Of a DNA stretch of 64,000 nt, positions 4,905-30,715 are shown in pieces (the first letter of the stretch is position 1; every line of letters begins with the position of its first letter). The notes under the pieces were generated by a model. That model was not told the origin of the DNA and searched no databases. It saw nothing but the letters and a program-made list of their open reading frames with translations. The translations under genes and the position numbers were made by a program. Source of the stretch: Mediterraneibacter butyricigenes. GTDB taxonomy: Bacteria; Bacillota; Clostridia; Lachnospirales; Lachnospiraceae. The stretch covers positions 1,054,001 to 1,118,000 of the forward strand of contig NZ_BHGK01000001.1 in NCBI RefSeq assembly GCF_003574295.1. Reading direction: 5' to 3'.

Positions 4905-7900
4905 TTACTCCTCCGTGTAATAGAACATATTTGCCGCGTTTTCCACTTCACGCATAGAGCTTAGTGTAGCCTTCTCAGTATCCTTACATGACTGTCCATA
5001 ATAATTCATAAGGCGGTTATATTTATCAGTTCCATAAACATAGTACCGTAAAGGCTTGCCTTGTGCGGCCAGCATCTTCCACCAATCAATAAACTGGTCA
5101 ATTTCATTCTCCGCATCCAGTCTTACTTCTGGTTTAACTATATTAATCCGGTCAAGGATTAAAGCCTTTATCTCGGACATTTGTATATCAGAAAGAGCTG
5201 CAATATCAGCTGCTCTTTCATTAGATGCCATTTCCGGATATTTTAACCGAATCGCAGAAATTATAAGAGCGTGCATTACACGGTCTCTTGCTCGCGCAGA
5301 GAACGGAGTTGCTGTTGTACCTTCAACAAACCTATATAGCTGCGAATGATAACCCGTAAAATTCTCATAATGTGATAAGTCGCGTGGACGATATGGGTTA
5401 TAAAGCGTAAAAACAAGTCCTGGGAAAGCACGACCAATTCGGCTTGTTGCTTGAATATATTCAGAATTTTGCTTTGGCTGTCCGGTTACAACCATTAGCC
5501 CAAGGCGGTCAACATCCATACCGACCGCTATCATATTGGTTGCAACGGCTGTATCGAGACAATCCTTTGAATCACAAGTAGCCTCCAACTGTCTTAATTT
5601 ATTCGGAATCTCGTAAGAAGACATTCTGGAAGTAATCTCCACCTTCTTGTTTAGATAACGAACCTTATCCATATTGTATTTCGTTTTAATTCGATAGATT
5701 CGTTTCGGAATGTCGTCTTGTAACAAGCGTACTGCACCGCCAAGTTCTCGAATACTGTTGTAATATCCCACCAAAGAATAATACGGGTCAATCACATTCT
5801 TGTATTCATCCCGCTGAGCAAGTTGATAAGAAGTCTGAAGAATGATTGCATACATTCTTAACAGTGTCGTCTTTACGGATTGACCTGGTGCGCAGACTCC
5901 AACATACTTTCGGAAAGGATCATCTTTAGTGGATATTTCATTGATGAAGAAACTGTCACCAATTTCAAACCCGTTAGGAGGAAACTGTGCAGTTGATTGT
6001 CGTGCATAAAGGCATCTTGTCTGCTCCGATGCGTTTTTAATGGTGGCAGTTGAAACCACATACTTCGGCTTAATCCTCTTATCGCCATAAGTACACATAT
6101 CCTCAATAATGGTTTCGTATGCACCATAAACCGTTCCAAGAGGCCCCGTAATCAAATGAAGCTCATCTTGAATGATTAGCTCAGGTGGAAGAAACGGTCG
6201 AATCGGAGTTAATGTTGAAGCGGGAAGCTCTTGCGTCCTGTTGTGTCGTTTATGCTCTTCACCAATGGCAACATACCCATCACGGCTGCAAACCCTATCA
6301 ACTCTTCCAAACAACGCATTTGTCTTAACATCCCAAGGAAGGCGGGCAAATTTATCAACAGTAGACAAAATAATTGTCGGACATTTCGCATAAATTTCCT
6401 CATCAACAAGATACACTGGAATCCGAATACGATCCTGTTTGTACTTATAAAACATACAATTTCTATCTGCGCAATAAATAGCAACAGATTTTCTATCAGG
6501 ATCAATATAAAACTCATCTTCCGTAAGAGGTTTTCCGCAAAATGGGCAAGTCAACAGCTGCTTGTAAAGCAGATTTCGTTTTCTTCTTGCTTCGCCCGGC
6601 TTATCAGCTTTTTCTACTAATTCATCAAATTTGTTAGGTGTGACACCTCCACCTACCCAGAAACCAATACTAATAGGTTCCTTTCCATACTTAGGATATG
6701 TTTTTTGACGAATAAGTTCAGCAGCAACAACCATTTTCGTTATTCGATCTCTCTGCTGTGTTGTCAAAAGGCGTAACGTATAACGGAGCATTGCGGTAAC
6801 TCCACCATCAGCGTTGTACTCAGATGCATCAGAAGCACGCAATCTTCGATTAGCAATCACAAACGCCATCAAACCCAAATATGCCTCAGTTTTACCGCCG
6901 CCAGTCGGGAAATACAGCAAATCGACTACATCCCGGTCCTTATGCTCTGGATTAACAATTCCACTCAAATTCATCAGTATGAAAGCAATCTGGAATGGTC
7001 TCCATCCAAAATCTGTATCAGGCTTTCTTGGGTCTACAAAATCTCTAAAGTTGCACTCTATGCCAGCGCCATGCTTTTTAGAATAGCTCATGATATTTCG
7101 CTGAAGTAACATGGAGCGGTTCATAAAGCAAAATGCATCAAAAGCGACTTCATCATTTGCAATCAATTCGATGCCTTCACGGATTCTATTCAACGCTTCG
7201 CTACAATGGGAAATTACCTTATCGCCAATTTTTTCTTTAAAATCAGCATTGGACATTTTATCATCCGAAATTAGTTTTTCATGAATCCATTTTCCATAAG
7301 AATCAGCCAAGACATTTAATCGCTCAAAGATACCCGCCTTGTTTTTGGTATTGGACATGAACCGCATTGAGAAAAAGAACTTATCAAACCCCTTCAAAGC
7401 AGCACTTACGCCAGGAAACTCATATTCTGGGATAAAATCCGATTTTACCCAAAAGGTTCTGCCTTCTACCGCATCATCCCATGTCGCAGCACAATTCCTG
7501 CCACGGCCTAAAATGGGACGCTGTTCAAAATAGAACTCATCTTCTGCAAGTACATCACGGCAAATATTCTCTGCAAAGAATACTCTATCTTCATTTTCCG
7601 AGTATGCCTTAAGTTCAACTTGGAACATCATTGATTCAACTTCGTTTTCGGAGTTTTTCCGTCTATTCATAACATAAGCTGTTACCAAGGAATATCCCGT
7701 TTTCAAAGGAATTCTGGAAATATGGACGATGACATTTGAATCTTCCTGAAGGCGTAATTCGGTATTTTTTTCAAACGAATCGAAATCGACAACGATTGTG
7801 GATGACATTGGCTGTCGGGTATAACTGGCATGGTTATACTCTTTGCCATCTTTTCCAACTCGCTTCTCAACCGAACGAACATAGTCGCCCCATTTTACAT

Positions 7901-19808: not shown

Positions 19809-21050
19809 CTATTCCTTAACCATAGAAATCGGTGATTTTTCATCGAAATTCTCCTGGTTCAAAGCATCATTCACTACCTCGAAAAGTTCCTCTGGTTTAT
19901 TATACTTGACCCTCGCGTAAATGTCCATAGTTGTCTTACTATTCTCATGCCCTGCCAGGTACTGAACTGTCTTAGGGTCAACGCCCGCATAGAGCAGATT
20001 CGTGATGTAGGTATGCCGCAACAAGTGCGGTGTTACATCGAAATTCAGGGTATAGCGAATCTTGGGATTGTTCCTCTGCGTTGTTCCTAATGTCGGCTTG
20101 ACGGTATATTTGATGCTCTGTCCATTCACATATTTATAGTAAGTTCTCTCTTTCGCAGAACGAACAACTACATACTGCCAAACTCTCGTAAACTGAGAAT
20201 AGGAAAGCGGCTGTCCCTCACTGTCCGCAATCACATACTCCGATATGGAATTGGCTTTTGCTTCCCGCAGGCAGTCCACCAGGCACTTCGGAATGGGAAT
20301 GTCCCTTTTAGCTGCTTTTGTCTTTAGAACGGTAGAAATCACCGGCCTGTTATGCTCCGCGCGCCATGCACGTCTCACGGAAATGTATGGTGTGGATTCA
20401 TCCAGGAATACACAATCCCATTGCAATGCAAGAATTTCTTCCCGACGCAAGCCGGAATACAAACCAATCATAATAAAAAGATATGGCGGAAGCTCTTTCA
20501 CCGTATCCAACAGAACCGCAACCTGTTGATCTGTTAAGGCATCTTTCTTTTTCGATGCTTTTCCGCCCTTTGCTGAAATTCCCACACATGGATTATCGGT
20601 TATCAGCTGACTGCGCTCTGCCGAATAAAACACACACTTAATCAGCATATTTACCGTATCATACAGTCCTTTCGATTTTTGAGACAGCGGAACAAGCGTC
20701 AGACGAATATCATCCGCAGTCACTTCCTCCATATACATATCTCCCAGAGAGCTAATGACATAATTCTTCATATTCTGTCTGTATCCTTTTATAGTAGCCG
20801 TAGACACCTTTGCTGACTGCATCAGCAGCCATTTCTCACAATACTCGGCAACCGTTGGATGCTTTCGGTGAAAGATGATCTCATCCACCTGTCTCCGGGC
20901 CTCCAACTGCTTTTCATATAATTCTTCACAGGTGGTCGCATATAAGCTGACCTGCTTTCCATCGGCATCTGTAATTCTGGTTCTGTAATACAGTGTTCCT
21001 TTTCTTGTAACCGTTCCGTACTCTGGAACGCTTTGTTTTTTCTTAGCCAT
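19809..21050 (-). CDS. int: Tn916-type tyrosine integrase (integrase 2)
   Basis: 413 residues, the usual length of Tn916-family integrases. Arm-binding N-terminus (MAKKKQSVPEYGTVTRKG), SAM-like core domain, then the catalytic domain: GLRREEILALQWD (Arg), KTKAAKRDIPIP (Lys), TPHLLRHTYITNLL (HxxR), LAGHENSKTTMDIY (His and nucleophile Tyr). All catalytic residues are present. It lies head to tail with a close paralogue at 21202 but has no xis of its own next to it. It probably belongs to the mobilizable unit with mobC and relaxase 1 rather than to the ICE. An alternative is a tandem duplication inside one element. Confidence 0.93.
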   Translation of the reverse strand: MAKKKQSVPEYGTVTRKGTLYYRTRITDADGKQVSLYATTCEELYEKQLEARRQVDEIIFHRKHPTVAEYCEKWLLMQSAKVSTATIKGYRQNMKNYVISSLGDMYMEEVTADDIRLTLVPLSQKSKGLYDTVNMLIKCVFYSAERSQLITDNPCVGISAKGGKASKKKDALTDQQVAVLLDTVKELPPYLFIMIGLYSGLRREEILALQWDCVFLDESTPYISVRRAWRAEHNRPVISTVLKTKAAKRDIPIPKCLVDCLREAKANSISEYVIADSEGQPLSYSQFTRVWQYVVVRSAKERTYYKYVNGQSIKYTVKPTLGTTQRNNPKIRYTLNFDVTPHLLRHTYITNLLYAGVDPKTVQYLAGHENSKTTMDIYARVKYNKPEELFEVVNDALNQENFDEKSPISMVKE

Positions 21051-21142
21051 ACAAATCTTCCTTTCCTGATAATGAGTGTTCTTAAATTCACACCTTCTTT
21101 TTATCAGAAAGCACCCACTTAATCAAAGATACGGATTATGTA

Positions 21143-21184
21143 AAACAAAGAGCGAGACATCCTTGCCTCGCTCCAGCTTTGTTT
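21143..21184 (-). terminator. hairpin after integrase 1, near the ICE end
   Basis: AAACAAAG with CTTTGTTT and AGCGAG with CTCGCT form a two-part stem. It follows the integrase 1 stop. In Tn916-family elements the terminus lies shortly beyond int, so the ICE end is expected about here. Confidence 0.6.
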
Positions 21185-21201
21185 CCTACTCTTTATAATT
21201 G

Positions 21202-22422
21202 TTATGCCTGTGCTGCATCCCACTGGGCAAATGCACCACCCATTGTTCTTACCAGCTCATCCGGTCTGTTGTATTTAACCTTTGCGTAAATATCCATCGT
21301 AATTTTACTACTCTCATGCCCCGCCAGGTATTGAACCGTTTTCGGGTCCACGGACGAATGAATCAGATTCGTAATGTATGTATGCCGCAGCTGATGCGGT
21401 GTCACTTCAAAATCCAAACTGTAAATCACTTTGCCGTTATGCGCTGCCTTTTCACCGAGGACTGGCGTAACCGTGTGCTTTACACGCTTTCCATCCTCGT
21501 AGCGATAATAGAAACGCTCCTTGACTGTTCGGGTTACAATGTACTGCCAGAGCCGCTTGAACTGTGTATAGGACAACGGATCACCATCCCGGTTCGGCAC
21601 CACATATTCTGACTGTGAATTAGCTTTTGTCTCTTTCAGACAGTCCGCCAGGCAAACCGGCAACGGAATATTTCGATGCGCGGCTTTCGTTTTCAGCTCA
21701 TCCAGAATCACCGGTCTGTTATTTTCCGTGTGCCATGCCCTGCGTACCGTTAAATAAGGGCAATCCACATCCAGATATACAGAATCCCATTTTAGGGCAA
21801 GAATTTCTTCTCGCCGCAATCCTGCATACAGCCCTAACATGACAAATACATACGGCGGAAGTCCCTGAATGGCATCCAGCAGTCTGGCGGCCTGTTCATC
21901 TGTCAATACAGCTTTGTCCTTTTGCGGAATGCCTCCGCCTTTGGCCGTAAGGTAAATCGTTGGGTTGTTATCAATAATCTTACTTTCCTTTGCTGCCCGG
22001 AAAATAGATTTATACAGGATAACCACTGACTTATATACCGAAGCGGACTTCTCAGAAACAGGAACAAGTGCAAGCTGAATGTCATCCAGTGTCACATCTG
22101 CCATCCGCATCTGCCCCAGTTCTTTTATAATGTGCCGTCTGACCTTTGATGTATAATCTATCAGCGTGGTTGCCCTCACATGAACCGACTGCATCAAAAG
22201 CCATTTTTCACAGTAGTCTGCAACCGTCGGGGATTTCCGGCAGAATGTATCGTTGTCGATCTGCTCTAATGCACCCAACTCTTTATCATATAATTCTTCC
22301 GGTGTTCTCGCATAAAGGGCCACCAGTTTTCCATCTGCGTTCTGAACCCGCGTTCTATAATAATCTATGCCGTTAAGCGTAACTGTACCGTATTGTGGAA
22401 TTGCTCTTTTTCTTTTTGCCAA
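21202..22422 (-). CDS. int: Tn916-type tyrosine integrase (integrase 1, ICE end)
   Basis: 406 residues. The catalytic set is complete: GLRREEILALKWD, KTKAAHRNIPLP, TPHQLRHTYITNLI, LAGHESSKITMDIY. The start is a TTG at 22422 with AGGAGG eight bases before it. It gives MAKRKRAIPQYGTV, which lines up with MAKKKQSVPEYGTV of integrase 2; the GTG at 22431 overlaps the ribosome site. It follows an Xis-like gene and an Orf7-like sigma factor, the order seen at the int end of Tn916/Tn1549. It catalyses excision and integration of the ICE. Confidence 0.93.
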   Translation of the reverse strand: MAKRKRAIPQYGTVTLNGIDYYRTRVQNADGKLVALYARTPEELYDKELGALEQIDNDTFCRKSPTVADYCEKWLLMQSVHVRATTLIDYTSKVRRHIIKELGQMRMADVTLDDIQLALVPVSEKSASVYKSVVILYKSIFRAAKESKIIDNNPTIYLTAKGGGIPQKDKAVLTDEQAARLLDAIQGLPPYVFVMLGLYAGLRREEILALKWDSVYLDVDCPYLTVRRAWHTENNRPVILDELKTKAAHRNIPLPVCLADCLKETKANSQSEYVVPNRDGDPLSYTQFKRLWQYIVTRTVKERFYYRYEDGKRVKHTVTPVLGEKAAHNGKVIYSLDFEVTPHQLRHTYITNLIHSSVDPKTVQYLAGHESSKITMDIYAKVKYNRPDELVRTMGGAFAQWDAAQA

Positions 22423-22506
22423 TTCCGCCACCTCCTAAGAATATACTCCAGCGCTGTATCTATGTTTTATCAAACCATTCCGATTCCGGCAAGGATACGG
22501 ACCGGC

Positions 22507-22737
22507 TCACACTCCAGCTCTGCGAGGTTTACGATAAGTTGCGTTCTTTTCTGCTGGCTTTGCTCTGTGGGTGCATTTTGCGATATACTCCTGAAGGCCA
22601 GCTGAAGTAAAGTACACACAGCCATTCTGCACATATTGCACATAAGAAATAAGACCATTGTTACGGGCCGCGTCCAGCGTTGCAATGCTGATACCTAAAA
22701 TTTCTGCTGCTTCTTTTCGTGTAATAAGTTTTTCCAT
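22507..22737 (-). CDS. xis: excisionase-like HTH protein (Xis)
   Basis: 76 residues, winged-HTH/MerR-like: TRKEAAEILGISIATLDAARNNGL, here given as its helix parts RKEAAEILGIS and TLDAARNNGL. Then a wing with VQNGCVYFTSAG and a basic tail (KPRRAGV). The ATG at 22737 has GGAGG 11 bases upstream. It lies directly before integrase 1, as xis does in Tn916. Xis proteins bend the ends so that Int excises the element. An upstream frame extension to 22854 has no ribosome site. Confidence 0.8.
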   Translation of the reverse strand: MEKLITRKEAAEILGISIATLDAARNNGLISYVQYVQNGCVYFTSAGLQEYIAKCTHRAKPAEKNATYRKPRRAGV

Positions 22738-22798
22738 AAAGCATATTTCCTCCAATCTGTCAAGTTTGTCATCGTATTTGTTCAAAGCCACATGAATA

Positions 22799-23274: not shown

Positions 23275-23688
23275 TCAAAAATATTTTACAAGCTGCTTTA
23301 ATCCACGGCGGATACTGTCTCGGACACGGCTTGGGTCTACACCTTCTACTTCGGCAATTTCATTTACCGTCATTCCCAGATAGTATCGGGCATAAATTCG
23401 CTTTGCCTGTTTCTCCGGCAGCTTCATCACAGCGGCATAAACCTGCTCCTGAAACTGTTTTTCCTCCAGAAGCATCTCCGGCGCCTGGGGCTTCAGCAGG
23501 ATCGCATTTTCAATGCCGTTGTCGCAGTCCAAAGAGTAGTGCGCCTTATAGCGATACATCCTCCGGTCATAAGCAGCTTCTGCACGCTCAGCAGAACGAA
23601 TCGTCTCCAGCACATCTTCTGTTACTTCTACAAAGTGATCGGTTTTATAAACATCGGGATACAATTCCCGGAGATTGACTTTCTTCAT
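23275..23688 (-). CDS. Tn916 Orf7-like sigma factor (module 1)
   Basis: 137 residues. An N-terminal part conserved between both copies (MKKVNLRELYPDVYKTDHF, then RMYRYKAHYSLDCDNG) leads to a sigma-70 region 4: LPEKQAKRIYARYYLGMTV, then EIAEVEGVDPSRVRDSIRRGL. Such short sigma factors sit near xis-int in Tn916-family elements (Orf7). ATG 23688 has GGAGG seven bases upstream, but that site is next to a 13-bp hairpin (23699-23737). The frame stays open to 23802 upstream without a start signal. It probably directs RNA polymerase to element promoters; its targets are not visible here. Confidence 0.85.
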   Translation of the reverse strand: MKKVNLRELYPDVYKTDHFVEVTEDVLETIRSAERAEAAYDRRMYRYKAHYSLDCDNGIENAILLKPQAPEMLLEEKQFQEQVYAAVMKLPEKQAKRIYARYYLGMTVNEIAEVEGVDPSRVRDSIRRGLKQLVKYF

Positions 23689-23698
23689 TATGTACCTC

Positions 23699-23737
23699 CA
23701 TTTCGATTCACGGGCGGTTGACGAGTGAATCGAAATG
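23699..23737 (-). promoter_or_regulatory. hairpin abutting the sigma 1 Shine-Dalgarno
   Basis: A perfect 13-bp inverted repeat: CATTTCGATTCAC / GTGAATCGAAATG. Its 3' arm runs into the GGAGG of the sigma gene. The outer CCTC upstream can partly pair with GAGG. Module 2 has the equivalent structure. Confidence 0.7.
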
Positions 23738-23790
23738 AGGCGGGGATCGACAGCGACATACTTCGCACGCCTTCCCGAAAAATCGACAGC

Positions 23791-23826
23791 AAAAAACGCC
23801 AACTCCCCATAACGGGAAATCGGCGC
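23791..23826 (-). terminator. terminator between the 35-codon ORF and sigma 1
   Basis: On the minus strand, GCCGATTTCCC-gttat-GGGGAGTTGGC is followed by GTTTTTTG. It would stop transcripts from the upstream regulated promoter before the sigma gene, suggesting attenuation. The copy in module 2 keeps the structure with different bases. Confidence 0.7.
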
Positions 23827-23853
23827 AACAAAAATACCTACTATTCTGCTGAT

Positions 23854-23961
23854 TTAGATGGAACGATAATACTGATAGATAGTCATACTCCCCCGGAGGA
23901 GGGGCAAGACTTTTTTTAGCTGGTGTAACTCATGGCTATTGTGAATGACAAAAATTGACAC
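23854..23961 (-). CDS. conserved 35-residue small protein (module 1)
   Basis: GTG start at 23961, stop TAA at 23854. It begins MSIFVIHNSHELHQLKK and ends TIYQYYRSI. The module 2 copy (30438-30545) has exactly the same length. About two thirds of the residues are identical, with conservative changes elsewhere, while the flanking sequence has diverged. That pattern indicates selection on the protein. AGGAGG lies in the loop of the hairpin just before it, about eight to ten bases from the GTG. It may be a regulatory leader peptide or a small functional protein; I know no family. Confidence 0.6.
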   Translation of the reverse strand: MSIFVIHNSHELHQLKKVLPLLRGSMTIYQYYRSI

Positions 23962-24134
23962 GGCGGCATCCTCCTATGTGCCGCCGTACCAGATTACAGG
24001 GTGTAGGGTCGTCGTTCATTTTAGATAGACGAAAGGAAACGGCGGCTCTGATTTTTTCAAAGCCACCGTTGCAAAGTGCATAACAATATAGTCGCTGTGC
24101 GATGGCTTTTTTTCTTTTGCCATCGTGCGGCAAC
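23961..24134 (-). ncRNA. structured leader RNA of the sigma module (module 1)
   Basis: Three consecutive stem-loops: 24134-24091 (loop aaaagaaaaaaa on the minus strand), 24070-24038 (five-base loop) and 23986-23961 (AGGAGG in the loop). Module 2 has the same three at the same spacing with different paired bases and the same first loop. It lies between a regulated promoter (24152) and the 35-codon ORF. A 68-codon frame overlaps it, but its protein sequence is not conserved in module 2. Confidence 0.6.
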
Positions 24135-24151
24135 TTTTTCACTTTTCTTTT

Positions 24152-24242
24152 ATCTTAACAGGCAATCCTCACAGAAATGTCACGGACATACTCCATTTCG
24201 ACAAAATAACAAGCTGAAATCTCACCAATCTGTGAGATTTCA
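24152..24242 (-). promoter_or_regulatory. regulated promoter P1 (sigma module 1)
   Basis: -10 TAAGAT (24157-24152), six bases, then direct repeat GACATTTCTGT/GAGGATT (24182-24164). A distal palindrome GAAATCTCAC-N6-GTGAGATTTC lies at 24215-24242. Same layout as P2 and P3, so probably controlled by the response regulator at 28812. Confidence 0.7.
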
Positions 24243-24325: not shown

Positions 24326-26959
24326 TTACTCCGAAGTCCTCAGCCGCTCCACCACAGTTCCCTTGTTAAAGAAGTGGAGAACGATCAGCGGAATAACCGC
24401 AGCCAGCAGCAGATAAAGCACACCAATGACCAGAACCGGAACCAATGTAATATTCAGAGTAAAGAACCACATGGAAGGGCCATTCAATGCGCTCTTTAGC
24501 ACTGTGACTGCCAGGATCGCTGCGACTGCTCCGCCGATAATGTCCGCACCTACGGCATAGTAGATGCCCTCATAGACCGTCAAGCGGCGAAGCTGCTTGC
24601 CGGTCATACCGATGCTCTGCATGGTAGCAAACTCATGGCGGCGGGTGATGATGTTGGTAATAATCATGTTGGCAAAGTTAATCAGTCCTGCAAAGGCCAT
24701 GATGCAACCAATCAGACCGCCGATAACCAGGATCATGCTGCGGACCGAATCAAGCTGCTCTTTCAACAGCTTGGTGGAAGTATAGGCAACCGAAGTATTT
24801 TCACTCACATAGCTGCTCAAAAATTCTTCCATCTGCGGCTGCAAGGCTTCATCCACATTGAATCCATAAGTCAGCAGCGTGGGAGCGTCATAGATTTCCT
24901 TAAATACAGTGTCCGGCAGATACACAAAAGGAGCATCAGCGGCGATGTGCGCCTGGGCGGTGGTGCCTGTCGGCGTTTCGGTTTCCGTTCCCACGAGGAT
25001 CGCTTTTGCAAGGATAGTGCTGGTTTTGACCAGTTCCCCATCCTTGTAGAAGGAAATGCTCTCTCCAACCTGTAACTGATCGGTCAGCGGAGTGTTCCTT
25101 GGTTCCTCTGTCAGTTTGTCCATGGGGCAGCCAATAATGACATATTCTCCGGTAGCCATTTTCTGCGTTAAGGTTTCGGCATCTTTTTCGCCTTCAAAAA
25201 TACGCATATCAGCCCAGAAATTTTCGGAGGCCCCCATCACATTGCCAAAATAGCGCCTTTCGGTATCAGAACTTGTGTACAGGCTATATCCCTGATAGCT
25301 TTGATTTACGACGCCTTCTTCCTCATGAAACAGCTCTATGCCGCTTAAATCTTCAAACCCATAGTCAACCAATACATTTCTATCGTCTTTTGTATTTCGG
25401 TAGAGATAGCGTTCATCCTCAACTCCGGGCTGTCCGGCAATCAGATCCACCGCCTGTTGTGAGAGCGTATCTTTATGGTGCTGAACGCTTTCCATTACAT
25501 TAAATGCGGCTGAGTTATAGACATTAAAATCTGTTCTGGTGACACGGTTTACCCACTTTTCTTCATCAAGGCTTTGCGTCACAATGATGATAGAGTTAAA
25601 CAGGACGATGCACAGAAGCAGGGAAATAATGATGAACGCTGAACGCCGACGATTGCGGCCCAGGTTGGAAAAGGCCATACGGGACAGCTTTACCCCATTG
25701 GTTCGCTTGGCACTTCTCTTTTTATAGGCGTTCTGCTCGGTGTAGCGAATCGCCTCCAGAGGAGAAATCTTTGCCGCCTTTTTTGCAGGCTTCCTGGTGC
25801 TGATAAACACGGTCAGGATTGTAAAGAGAGCGGCGATAACAAAAATTAGCGGCGAGGTCGATACGGATGTACCCACCATAGAGTATTCAAGGTTAATGAT
25901 CTCTGTCACGATAGGAAGCAGCACCCAACCGGCAAAGAAACCGGCGATCAGACCAATAGGCAGTCCGATCAGCGTGAGCCAGACCGCCTGACGGTTCACA
26001 ATGCCCTTGATCTGCCGTGTGGAAGTGCCAATCGTCCGCAGCAGGCCGTATTGACGAACATCCTGCATCACAGAAATATCAAAGATATTGTAGATCAGTA
26101 GGTATCCGCACACGACAAACATCAGGATAAATACAACAGCAAACACGATGGACTCTGATGAAGTCAATCCCTGGGACATTTGATTTTCAGAGGCGAGAAT
26201 GAAATTGTCTGCGCCCATATCCTCTGGATTGCCGCCAATGGAGTAAACGAACTCATTCAACTGCTGCTGAACATTTTCTTTATTCTTCAGCACGACATCG
26301 GAAAAAGTAACGCCGGACATTTCATGGTCTACCGCATAAGTGTTCTGGACCACATCGGGGTTTTCCTTTATAAACTGCTCTGAAACAGTCGCAACGCTCA
26401 CAGAGTCATTGCTTGCTTCCCACCAGCCGGAAAGCACCATATCATAATGATAAGTTTTCCCCCGCAGTTCAAATTCCAGCGGAACCGCTGCGCCAATCTT
26501 TGGTTCTACACCCAGCGCCTTCAGCGCCAAATCCGTGGTGGCGATCTCATTCGCTTTCTCCGGTGCAGCTCCGTGAGTAGGCACACAGAAGGTCAGCTCC
26601 TGCTGCACACTGTCCGCATAATTAATCTCAATGGAATGGCTGGAAGTATTGCTTGCATAGCCAATGATGCGCCGGTGACCTGCCTGCTCCACAAAATCGC
26701 TGTTTACAAGCTGCTCGTACTGTTCCTCCGTCATATATCCTAAAGTGCCATCCGCCTTGCTGCCTTTCTGCATTTGCAGAGAGAGCTGGATGGAGGACGC
26801 CATATTGAACGCCAGGGAAGTGATAGAGGTAAATAGGAAAGCAGTCAGGATAATTGCCAGCAGTGCAGCCAGATTGCGTACCTTATTCTTTTTGAAATAG
26901 CGTTTGGATAGCTTGGTAATTACTTCGGAATTATTGTTGCCAAATAAAATGTCATTCAT
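24326..26959 (-). CDS. FtsX/MacB-type ABC permease 1 (large extracellular loops)
   Basis: 877 residues. One membrane helix near residues 30-50 (NLAALLAIILTAFLFTSIT), a large extracellular domain to about 265, then three helices with the cytoplasmic motif QYGLLRTIGTSTRQIKGIV. A second half repeats the plan: helix at about 430, a loop of about 270 residues, then EFATMQSIGMTGKQLRRL and two last helices. This two-half FtsX layout belongs to permeases that pump or sense antimicrobial peptides. It ends ERLRTSE. It pairs with the ATPase 14 bases upstream. The nearby two-component system suggests drug- or peptide-induced expression; the substrate is unknown. Confidence 0.88.
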   Translation of the reverse strand: MNDILFGNNNSEVITKLSKRYFKKNKVRNLAALLAIILTAFLFTSITSLAFNMASSIQLSLQMQKGSKADGTLGYMTEEQYEQLVNSDFVEQAGHRRIIGYASNTSSHSIEINYADSVQQELTFCVPTHGAAPEKANEIATTDLALKALGVEPKIGAAVPLEFELRGKTYHYDMVLSGWWEASNDSVSVATVSEQFIKENPDVVQNTYAVDHEMSGVTFSDVVLKNKENVQQQLNEFVYSIGGNPEDMGADNFILASENQMSQGLTSSESIVFAVVFILMFVVCGYLLIYNIFDISVMQDVRQYGLLRTIGTSTRQIKGIVNRQAVWLTLIGLPIGLIAGFFAGWVLLPIVTEIINLEYSMVGTSVSTSPLIFVIAALFTILTVFISTRKPAKKAAKISPLEAIRYTEQNAYKKRSAKRTNGVKLSRMAFSNLGRNRRRSAFIIISLLLCIVLFNSIIIVTQSLDEEKWVNRVTRTDFNVYNSAAFNVMESVQHHKDTLSQQAVDLIAGQPGVEDERYLYRNTKDDRNVLVDYGFEDLSGIELFHEEEGVVNQSYQGYSLYTSSDTERRYFGNVMGASENFWADMRIFEGEKDAETLTQKMATGEYVIIGCPMDKLTEEPRNTPLTDQLQVGESISFYKDGELVKTSTILAKAILVGTETETPTGTTAQAHIAADAPFVYLPDTVFKEIYDAPTLLTYGFNVDEALQPQMEEFLSSYVSENTSVAYTSTKLLKEQLDSVRSMILVIGGLIGCIMAFAGLINFANMIITNIITRRHEFATMQSIGMTGKQLRRLTVYEGIYYAVGADIIGGAVAAILAVTVLKSALNGPSMWFFTLNITLVPVLVIGVLYLLLAAVIPLIVLHFFNKGTVVERLRTSE

Positions 26960-27671: not shown

Positions 27672-27760
27672 ATTGTAACGACCAAACCTCACAGAAATGT
27701 CATGAGCCACAAAAAATTTCTGCTAAATTCGGCCCCAAATGTCACGAACCTGTGACATTT
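27672..27760 (-). promoter_or_regulatory. regulated promoter P2 (ATPase 1-permease 1)
   Basis: -10 TACAAT (27677-27672), six bases, direct repeat GACATTTCTGT/GAGGTTT (27702-27684). Distal palindrome AAATGTCAC-N6-GTGACATTT at 27737-27760, about 54 bases from the proximal site. Confidence 0.75.
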
Positions 27761-29521: not shown

Positions 29522-29552
29522 AGTGTAGCATCCAAATGTCACAGAAATCTCA
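29522..29552 (-). promoter_or_regulatory. regulated promoter P3 (two-component system 1)
   Basis: -10 TACACT (29527-29522), six bases, direct repeat GAGATTTCTGT/GACATTT (29552-29534). There is no distal palindrome, since the next gene ends at 29561. Confidence 0.75.
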
Positions 29553-29560
29553 CGAGAGGA

Positions 29561-29858: not shown

Positions 29859-30272
29859 CTAAAAATACTTTGCCAGCTGCTTCAGACCGCGCCGGATGCT
29901 GTCACGGACACGGCTTGGGGCTACACCCTCCGCTGCGGCGATCTCACTCACACGCATACCCAGGTAATACCGGGCATAGATCCTCTTGGCCTGCTTCTCT
30001 GGCAGAGCCATCACAGCGGCATAGAGCTGCTCCCGCAGCTGCTTTTCCTCCAGAAGCATCTCCGGTGTTTGCGGCTTCAACAGCACCGCATTTTCAATGC
30101 CATTCTCGCAATCCAGAGAATACTGTGCTTTATAACGATACATCTTTCGCTCATACGCAGCCTCCGCACGTTCAGCTGCTCGAATAGTCTCCATTACTTT
30201 CTCTGTCACATCTACAAAAAAGTCTGTTGTATAAACATCAGGATAAAGTTCCCGAAGGTTAATTTTCTTCAT
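29859..30272 (-). CDS. Tn916 Orf7-like sigma factor (module 2)
   Basis: 137 residues, the same length as the module 1 copy and highly similar: MKKINLRELYPDVYTTDFF, RMYRYKAQYSLDCENG-like middle, region 4 with LPEKQAKRIYARYYLGMRV and SRVRDSIRRGLKQLAKYF. ATG 30272 has GGAGG seven bases upstream inside the hairpin 30279-30324. Keeping two such sigma factors in one element is unusual and suggests fusion of two Tn916-like ends or cargo duplication with its control unit. Confidence 0.85.
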   Translation of the reverse strand: MKKINLRELYPDVYTTDFFVDVTEKVMETIRAAERAEAAYERKMYRYKAQYSLDCENGIENAVLLKPQTPEMLLEEKQLREQLYAAVMALPEKQAKRIYARYYLGMRVSEIAAAEGVAPSRVRDSIRRGLKQLAKYF

Positions 30273-30278
30273 TATGTA

Positions 30279-30324
30279 CCTCCATTTCGATTCACGGGTG
30301 ATTGACGGGTGAATCGAATGGAGG
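30279..30324 (-). promoter_or_regulatory. hairpin sequestering the sigma 2 Shine-Dalgarno
   Basis: On the minus strand CCTCCATTCGATTCAC pairs with GTGAATCGAAATGGAGG (one bulged A). The GGAGG ribosome site is fully inside the stem, so translation should need the stem to open. Confidence 0.72.
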
Positions 30325-30374
30325 TGGGGAACGGCAGCGACGTACTTCGGGAACTTTCCCGAAAAATCGACAGC

Positions 30375-30410
30375 AAAAAGCGCCAGCTCCACACAATGGG
30401 AAACTGGCGC
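30375..30410 (-). terminator. terminator between the 35-codon ORF and sigma 2
   Basis: GCGCCAG and CTGGCGC with TTTCC/GGA inside, followed by TTTTTG on the minus strand. It is the counterpart of the one at 23791. Confidence 0.75.
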
Positions 30411-30437
30411 AACAAAAATAACCATAATTCTTCTGTT

Positions 30438-30545
30438 TTAATTGGAATGATAATGCCGATAGATAATCATATCTCCCCAGAGGAGGGGCAAGGCTTTTTT
30501 TAATTGGTGCAGCTCATGGGTGATATGAATGACAAAAATTGACAT
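30438..30545 (-). CDS. conserved 35-residue small protein (module 2)
   Basis: ATG 30545, stop TAA 30438. It begins MSIFVIHITHELHQLKK and ends IIYRHYHSN. Length is identical to the module 1 copy and most changes are substitutions with no gaps. AGGAGG lies in the preceding hairpin loop, about eight bases from the ATG. The next signal is a terminator, then the sigma gene. It is too short for routine gene calling and probably often missed. Confidence 0.62.
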   Translation of the reverse strand: MSIFVIHITHELHQLKKALPLLWGDMIIYRHYHSN

Positions 30546-30715
30546 GGCGGTATCCTCCTATATACCGCCCTCTTGATTGCATGAGCATCGTTGGAAAAGC
30601 AAAAAGAAACAGCGGCCTTGATCTACTCAAAACCGCCGTATCAGCTATGTGGCTTTGCATGGGAAATGATCTGCCCGTCAGCGGTTTTTTTCTTTTCCCC
30701 GCTGTGGAGGCAGAT
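30546..30715 (-). ncRNA. structured leader RNA of the sigma module (module 2)
   Basis: Three stem-loops: 30715-30669 (ATCTGCC/GGCAGAT and CAGCGG/CCGCTG, loop as in module 1), 30639-30609, and 30569-30546 (GGCGGTAT/ATACCGCC with AGGAGG in the loop). Paired bases differ from module 1 in a compensating way. Confidence 0.62.

Follow-up and report, generated by a model that had tools for sequence, protein, structure and literature searches.

A candidate frameshift-switched attenuator ahead of sigma-like genes in integrative elements of gut Clostridia

The pil1 operon of Streptococcus gallolyticus is activated by translation through a leader terminator: a short leader open reading frame (ORF) ends ahead of an intrinsic terminator, and a longer reading across the terminator turns the operon on (as described in the portion of PMC3894217 drawn on here). 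We analyzed a leader of similar layout in 64,000 nt of Mediterraneibacter butyricigenes (GCF_003574295.1, NZ_BHGK01000001.1 positions 1,054,001-1,118,000, forward strand), hereafter the window, where it occurs twice (modules 1 and 2), each time ahead of a gene for a sigma-70 region 4 protein. As in the pil1/pyrBI mode of control, a leader ORF with its own Shine-Dalgarno (SD) sequence and start lies ahead of a terminator, which one reading stops short of and the other crosses. In pil1 the frame is set in the DNA by the number of GCAGA repeats, whereas here a run of seven A's (A7) is nearly constant and the change must occur in decoding. Beyond what the same portion of that source describes, the present locus has a putative hairpin over the next SD, covarying hairpins upstream and a mobile-element regulator as its target. 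From the sequence evidence below, we consider it likely that the leader is an attenuator of transcription, switched by a programmed -1 slip at A7.

Other described systems share single parts of this arrangement. The heptamer is that of the A_AAA_AAA magnesium-chelatase cassette, for which 10% frameshifting in E. coli is given in the excerpted part of PMC3711429; there the slip makes a long protein, whereas here it would gate a leader. In the ermC leader, ketolide-induced frameshifting lets ribosomes run on and unfold the RNA that blocks the next gene, and the leader-ORF section of the review in question names only this type of drug-induced case and one incidental case (PMC5009743, in part). 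What distinguishes the present locus from ermC is the conservation of a slippery run and a -1 ORF, with a transcription terminator along the way. An excerpt of PMC3485107 names attenuation of tet(M)/orf12 transcription in Tn916. This is likewise leader-controlled attenuation in an integrative and conjugative element (ICE), with a different leader and a different target, tet(M). Also in Tn916, canT shares a structured RNA and control by termination and antitermination, but it is a processive antiterminator of conjugation genes for which the section of PMC11658703 used here describes no leader translation. Both Tn916 systems were set apart by their descriptions. To our knowledge, the tet(M)/orf12 attenuation involves no frameshift. 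Judging by titles and abstract openings, no open-access paper found by searching dealt with a frameshift-gated attenuator in an ICE.

Change of coding frame at the A7 site

The leader ORF runs to a slippery YTA AAA AAA G. Among 86 non-redundant copies, the frame-0 stop was found one codon past A7 in 46 and 17-18 codons past it in 35 (81/86 together), ahead of the terminator hairpin. Where it stands one codon past A7 it is TAG in 46 of 46, a choice that would be favored by the -1-frame alanine codon GCN, conserved in 63/86. As at programmed -1 sites, the heptamer is in frame and a conserved -1 coding ORF leads on from it: the -1 frame stays open for at least 53 codons past A7 in 71 of 74 non-redundant copies found by a DNA pattern (the exceptions being L014 with 41, L034 with 32 and L039 with 17; L numbers denote loci). 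Its product begins with S[VIL]AP in 57 of these 74, and a subgroup has SLFP or SLLP.

Coding selection was assessed by counting synonymous changes in one-change codons, matched for transitions and transversions, in pairs that used each copy once. In the -1 frame we found 101 synonymous changes out of 252 at +0 to 75 nt, against 70.7 expected (48 pairs; p 2.6e-5), and 104 out of 201 at +120 to 195 nt, after the terminator, against 62.7 expected (42 pairs; p 1.1e-9). Neither frame 0 nor frame +1 had a synonymous excess in these two intervals. Upstream of the motif the excess was confined to frame 0 (37/86 vs 25.7; 54 pairs; p 0.0065). From its closing stop to ten codons past A7, the -1 frame has no start codon in 80/86 copies, and a -1-frame start with an SD-like 4-mer anywhere ahead of the terminator was seen in 1/86; the conserved -1 ORF was missed by annotation because it lacks a start codon. 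Coding selection that moves from frame 0 to a startless -1 frame at A7 indicates that the frame is changed there, by ribosomes or by transcripts. It was noted that residues 4-7 of the -1 product are often P-P-P-G (P4 73/86, P5 66/86, P6 54/86, G7 57/86), which may form a polyproline pause helping to couple the slipped ribosome to RNA polymerase.

Copies were collected by several routes. A leader peptide search within the family was positive for 16 of 397 genomes, and several leader copies end in TAG right after ...HDLHQLKKA. The DNA pattern for the leader motif had at least 119 matches in the collection of species genomes and another 2 in viral contigs; of the 80 matches listed, most carry names of Clostridia, Lachnospiraceae and Oscillospiraceae among them. 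Of the 119, L073 and L129 were chance matches and were dropped from the site sets, as were L045, L064 and L151, where no leader start was found or the upstream sequence was too short. Because the pattern fixes A7, the copies that it found cannot test that run. A search with the -1 protein, blind to A7, was positive for 21 of 392 genomes from the order, at a total of 28 places. Of these 28 loci, 25 were inspected (all but L171, L173 and L174), L179 among them lying too near the locus end for its upstream part to be read. An SD-preceded leader start was present at 114/125 sites. A third, more distant leader copy was encountered in the organism's own genome (L160/L003, C1:1152866-1153051; -1 product SLLPAAEQCGQQYALYHV), and one copy (L062) lies on a contig of a Bacteroidales metagenome-assembled genome, a placement that is possibly a binning error.

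Protein searches over the loci in hand yielded 19 sites beyond the pattern, with an A-run of 7 in 16 of them and A9, A6 and A5 in the others, and every A7 run among them stood in the phase xxA AAA AAA. Upstream of A7 the -1 frame is closed at all 15 protein-found sites with a leader start and at 98/99 pattern sites, and 0/104 places with upstream room were lost for want of an A-run. Sites found by the leader peptide had A7 in 24/25 and A9 in one (22 of the 24 were scored by script, L018 and L022 by their printed codons; 5 loci are shared with the protein-found set). These counts bear on whether A7 could be a phase-variation tract, switching by replication slippage between A7 (off) and a frame-joining length (on) in the manner of the pil1 GCAGA repeats. 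The layout is the same as that of pil1, and in one natural copy, L181 (~1485), the run is A6 and the leader is a base shorter than in the related L180, so that leader and -1 ORF share one frame. A phase-variable tract should show both states, whereas nearly all peptide-found sites have A7 and none of the 19 sites found without requiring A7 has A8; we regard this explanation as the least probable of those weighed.

The same sites speak to the leader peptide itself. It could be an arrest peptide of the Erm/Msr type that senses a ribosome-targeting drug, with a stall at ...HQLKKA rearranging the RNA. Many copies conserve H[DE]LHQLKK, there is a putative hairpin over the sigma SD, and SIFVI resembles the ermC leader peptide. 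The peptides at protein-found sites, however, range from HNLHQLKK to MRAGICSSSKK; some copies carry an unrelated peptide and keep A7 and the -1 protein, so that the peptide diverges widely while A7 persists. A conserved -1 coding frame would also be left unexplained, and drug-sensing arrest is judged very unlikely.

Who slips is a separate matter, as the sequences would fit ribosomal and polymerase slippage alike. RNA polymerase could insert an extra A at A7 in some transcripts, to the same frame and effect; the product is identical by either route, and ribosomal stimulators were not found around A7 in the 86 copies. Seven A's are short for this, An with n>7 being the length given for transcriptional slippage in the part of PMC3711429 used here. 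The protein-found runs also all keep the phase required for tandem slippage by ribosomes, although this may simply reflect descent. We hold polymerase slippage to be a lesser possibility that deserves to be kept in view.

Terminator, sigma gene and the proposed switch

A terminator-like hairpin followed by T's was found at +101 to 118 nt past the slip in 82 of the 86 copies, and the hairpin reaches -15 kcal/mol or lower in 81/86 compared to 1/258 shuffles. Past the T tract, the -1 frame is open in 79/82, frame 0 in 2 and frame +1 in 3. The next gene encodes a product of about 140 aa, and its start was located in 75/86 copies. These sigma-like proteins fall into 13 rough clusters, 12 of which have members matching Pfam sigma-70 region 4; the thirteenth (L050) is cut by the locus end and matches nothing, and Pfam reported no sigma region 2 in the sigma-like proteins. 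In modules 1 and 2 the -1 stop lies 19 nt ahead of the sigma start, a position that falls in the 3' arm of the putative hairpin over the sigma SD. More widely, it falls within -19 to +10 nt of the sigma start in 45/75 copies, and in 7/75, the copy of plasmid pMG2200 included, the sigma ORF and the -1 frame form one fused reading frame. When the arms of the SD hairpin were swapped among these related copies, pairing was stronger with the own partner (-18.0 kcal/mol) than with the arms of other copies (-15.3 kcal/mol; n=75; p 5e-11).

The fusions raise the question of whether the trans-frame protein is itself the functional product, as a small Cys-rich protein or a sigma-like N-terminal extension, with the terminator incidental. 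The synonymous excess persists past the terminator, and a CxxC...C pattern occurs in part of the family. The window version is without CxxC, no NCBIfam family matched the one version searched at E<=0.01, and the two versions searched against Pfam gave sub-threshold matches only (E 0.18 and 0.35). The position of the stop is variable, and a strong terminator at a fixed place within the ORF demands an explanation; we consider this proposal rather unlikely.

We return to the attenuator. Under this account, most ribosomes would keep to frame 0 and soon meet a stop; the terminator would form in the wake of RNA polymerase, with the hairpin over the sigma SD still closed. A minority of ribosomes would slip one base back on A AAA AAA, or read RNA with a polymerase-added eighth A, and would translate across the terminator until they either reach a stop in the SD hairpin's 3' arm, as in modules 1 and 2, or enter the sigma ORF. 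Their passage would allow transcription to continue and expose the sigma start; translation of the sigma gene is probably attenuated as well. The region-4 sigma-like protein, whose gene lies near xis/int in the examined copies, would then raise the expression of mobilization genes, and the slip rate would set a low basal activity.

Several observations weigh against this account. We infer slippage and antitermination from sequence, and 68 of the 86 copies were either found by the pattern, with A7 fixed, or come from three plasmid or phage records; because the copies are related, all p values are approximate. At programmed -1 sites one would look for stimulators, and there is no SD-like 4-mer upstream of A7 in any of the 86 copies, while the fold past A7 has a mean z of -0.23, which indicates no structural stimulator. 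Such stimulators are common but are not required by every known programmed -1 site. With a lax limit of -7 the terminator rule fires in 79/258 shuffles (only 7 of them at +101 to 118), and the -1 ORF ends ahead of the terminator in 3 of the 82 copies that have one. It also ends outside -19 to +10 in 30/75 copies, stopping 147-232 nt short of the sigma start in 3 and, fusions apart, running further into the sigma gene in a different frame in the remaining 20. The sigma SD is paired in 65/75 folds, yet it is paired in 292/375 shuffles too; since this count is barely above shuffles, the case for the SD hairpin is taken from the arm-swap test. Lastly, the two upstream hairpins, H1 and H2, have no part in the proposed mechanism.

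Hairpins of the leader RNA

An earlier note, made from the letters of the sequence, had described three stem-loops (H1 to H3) in identical order in the two modules. Folding bore this out, with minimum free energy z-scores of -5.19 for module 1 (24134-23961, minus) and -3.86 for module 2 (30715-30546, minus), and 0/200 dinucleotide shuffles equally stable in either case. The A-rich H1 loop AAAAGAAAAAAA is indeed common to both modules while the stem letters differ, and the AGGAGG loop of H3 does sit on a stem with a C-G to T-A swap (at one pair, C-G in 25 and U-A in 16 of 46 copies). The overlapping 68-codon frame that had been set aside (23936-24142, minus) exists and is not the relevant protein; with respect to the leader ORF it reads in frame -1, and it stops short of A7. 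The leader ahead of the sigma modules is structured as described, but the description stopped at 23961 and thereby missed the leader ORF, A7, the -1 ORF, the terminator and the SD hairpin. The alignment of modules 1 and 2 extends from the upstream region down to the sigma start.

The AGGAGG of H3 stands directly 5' of a GTG (module 1) or ATG (module 2), each opening a 35-codon ORF, and it is the SD of this leader ORF and not of the sigma gene. With the SD in or near the loop and the start codon at the foot of the stem, H3 most likely tunes leader initiation. The leader SD lies within the apical loop in 59/88 leaders and in 237/402 of a control with swapped 5' parts, a count that is not informative.

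Compensating changes had been read as a sign of RNA structure under selection, a view that finds support in H1 and H3, while H2 shows little covariation. In our own tree-aware test, similar to R-scape, no structure pair reached E<0.05, either on a MAFFT alignment with 88 leaders or on loop-anchored arms (64 for H1, 88 for H3). These alignments mix stem geometries. We next turned to structure-aware alignments and pair counts, which lean towards the structure; there, the pair counts for H1 and H3 exceed shuffles. Among 68 matches fitted to a structure model (an alignment that leans towards that model), 95.3% of the H1+H2 cells were paired and 18/25 pairs changed on both sides, 5/5 outer and 7/7 inner pairs of H1 among them. 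The cells changed on both sides numbered 95, compared to a shuffled mean of 21.2 (0/500 as high) and 45 in the best slid version. In a plain MAFFT alignment (44 copies out of 53 candidates, 9 left out), 8/25 H1+H2 pairs changed on both sides against a shuffled mean of 1.9 (0/500), and all 8 were in H1. H2 is a nearly invariant GC-rich hairpin, with both-side changes in 0/13 pairs of the MAFFT alignment and in 6/13 pairs (9 cells) of the 68 copies, where 98% of its cells are paired.

The H3 set comprised 46 of 88 leaders: 27 whose H3 is of another type or whose SD is not clear were skipped, duplicates were removed, and 4 of the remaining 50 were excluded by hand. Both-side changes occurred in 7/12 H3 pairs (2/500 shuffles had as many) and in 35 cells against 16.5 (0/500); further pair types were no more numerous than in shuffles (102/500). 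An arm-swap test on H1 in 69/88 leaders and on H3 in 88 was in line with the covariation. Together, these results support selection on a structured leader RNA ahead of the sigma modules for H1 and H3, as far as alignments of related copies can tell.

One may ask whether a structured regulatory RNA does all the work, by binding a protein or ligand or as an antiterminator like Tn916 canT, with frameshifting having no role. H1 and H3 covary, H1 lies, by reading, at the 5' edge of conservation, and RNA antiterminators exist in related elements (PMC11658703, in the section used here). A7, the switch of coding frame and the terminator inside the -1 ORF would all go unexplained, and we find it quite unlikely as the whole explanation; a structured-RNA role may additionally hold for H1-H2.

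The H1-H2 model had no match at E<=0.01 in 12 of 90 leader-bearing sources, nor in 3 unrelated control loci. One match (59.4 bits) was encountered at L063 1550-1675, far from the L063 leader motif at 6511, and is perhaps a second copy or remnant. In module 2, the U-rich tail that follows H2 (UUUCUUUU) and the H1 loop AAAAGAAA are complementary, which makes a contact between them possible; in module 1 the complementarity is not full. H2 was tried as a second terminator, and the terminator scan of module 1 did not call it. An alternative H2/H3 pairing is possible in the window and is lost, by reading, in copies with the other H3 type. The comparison with Rfam that the earlier note had proposed gave 0 matches at gathering score in the window and 0 in 8 loci (Rfam 15); there were sub-threshold matches only, scoring 22.7 bits (gathering score 100) and 22 (gathering score 176).

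Window features and mobile-element context

The features of both modules and the genes behind module 1 are collected in Table 1.

Table 1. Positions of leader-module features and neighboring genes in the window
Feature	Position	Strand	Remarks
Module 1 H1	24091..24133	minus	A-rich loop; fold and covariation
Module 1 H2	24030..24070	minus	GC-rich, pyrimidine-rich tail; fold
Module 1 H3	23960..23987	minus	loop holds AGGAGG (leader ORF SD); fold, arm-swap, covariation
Module 1 frame-0 leader ORF	23854..23961	minus	GTG start, 35 codons, VSIFVIHNSHELHQLKK-VLPLL...
Module 1 slippery A7	23911..23917	minus	CTA AAA AAA G
Module 1 -1-frame ORF	23708..23911	minus	67 codons, SLAPPPGEYDYLS...VNRP
Module 1 putative intrinsic terminator	23791..23826	minus	within -1 ORF, past frame-0 stop
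Module 1 putative hairpin pairing with sigma SD	23695..23740	minus	CCTCATTTCGATTCAC...GTGAATCGAAATGGAGG; arm-swap test
Module 1 regulated gene, sigma-70 region 4 protein	23275..23688	minus	137 aa; PF08281, PF04545
Small HTH_17 protein downstream of module 1	22507..22740	minus	excisionase-like by position
Tyrosine integrase downstream of module 1	21202..22431	minus	PF00589
Module 2 H1	30669..30715	minus	
Module 2 H2	30600..30640	minus	
Module 2 H3	30546..30569	minus	SD in loop
Module 2 frame-0 leader ORF	30438..30545	minus	ATG start, 35 codons
Module 2 slippery A7	30495..30501	minus	
Module 2 -1-frame ORF	30292..30495	minus	67 codons
Module 2 putative intrinsic terminator	30375..30410	minus	
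Module 2 putative hairpin over sigma SD	30279..30324	minus	
Module 2 regulated gene, sigma-70 region 4 protein	29859..30272	minus	

Module 1 belongs to an integrative element, because its sigma gene is followed by genes for an HTH_17 protein and a tyrosine integrase and, farther along, for a MobC/NikA-like protein and a relaxase. Two long tandem ORFs behind module 1 (19809-22431) resemble tyrosine integrases, the second of them also by Pfam scan. Recombinases were also found downstream in four other loci checked (L055, L098, L065, L152). On pMG2200 the gene order is vanB cluster, leader, sigma-70 family protein, helix-turn-helix protein, excisionase and integrase; we take the vanB element of this plasmid to be Tn1549 (the record names the plasmid only). 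Fourteen Enterococcus plasmid records match the -1 ORF with no gene listed beneath, in a gene table that is incomplete. The copies L183 and L184, on plasmids from E. faecium, have an annotated ISEnfa3 transposase gene in the interval from vanX to the sigma gene; it ends near the -1 ORF and so cuts off the upstream part of the leader. In L182, a hypothetical protein annotated at 5746-5919 (minus) lies opposite the leader hairpin region (H1-H2 match 5798-5920) and is probably spurious.

A TGTGACATTTCTGTGAG-like repeat was noted on the minus strand at 24168-24184, 27688-27704, 29538-29554 and 26067-26083. The window holds 4 such sites at <=3 mismatches, compared to 0.19 expected and 0/100 shuffles with 4. 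They lie just 5' of the module 1 leader, 5' of ABC ATPase and response regulator genes, and inside a permease gene, and the leader promoter may be driven by the two-component system of the cargo as well.

On balance we lean, if only slightly, towards a reading in which such attenuators form a widespread class, with a programmed -1 frameshift, and not drug stalling or DNA phase variation, as the gate for a terminator and an SD hairpin. The class would control the regulator that activates integrative elements of gut Clostridia and the enterococcal vanB element. What would be new relative to translated-leader attenuation is that the gate is a conserved programmed slip. If this is true, evolutionarily conserved programmed frameshifting is used as an attenuation switch, and the activity of these mobile elements would be set, and perhaps signaled, by reading-frame fidelity on AAA AAA. 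This would give a concrete account of a near-silent regulator across a large gut mobile-element family, of which the element beside vanB on pMG2200 is a member.
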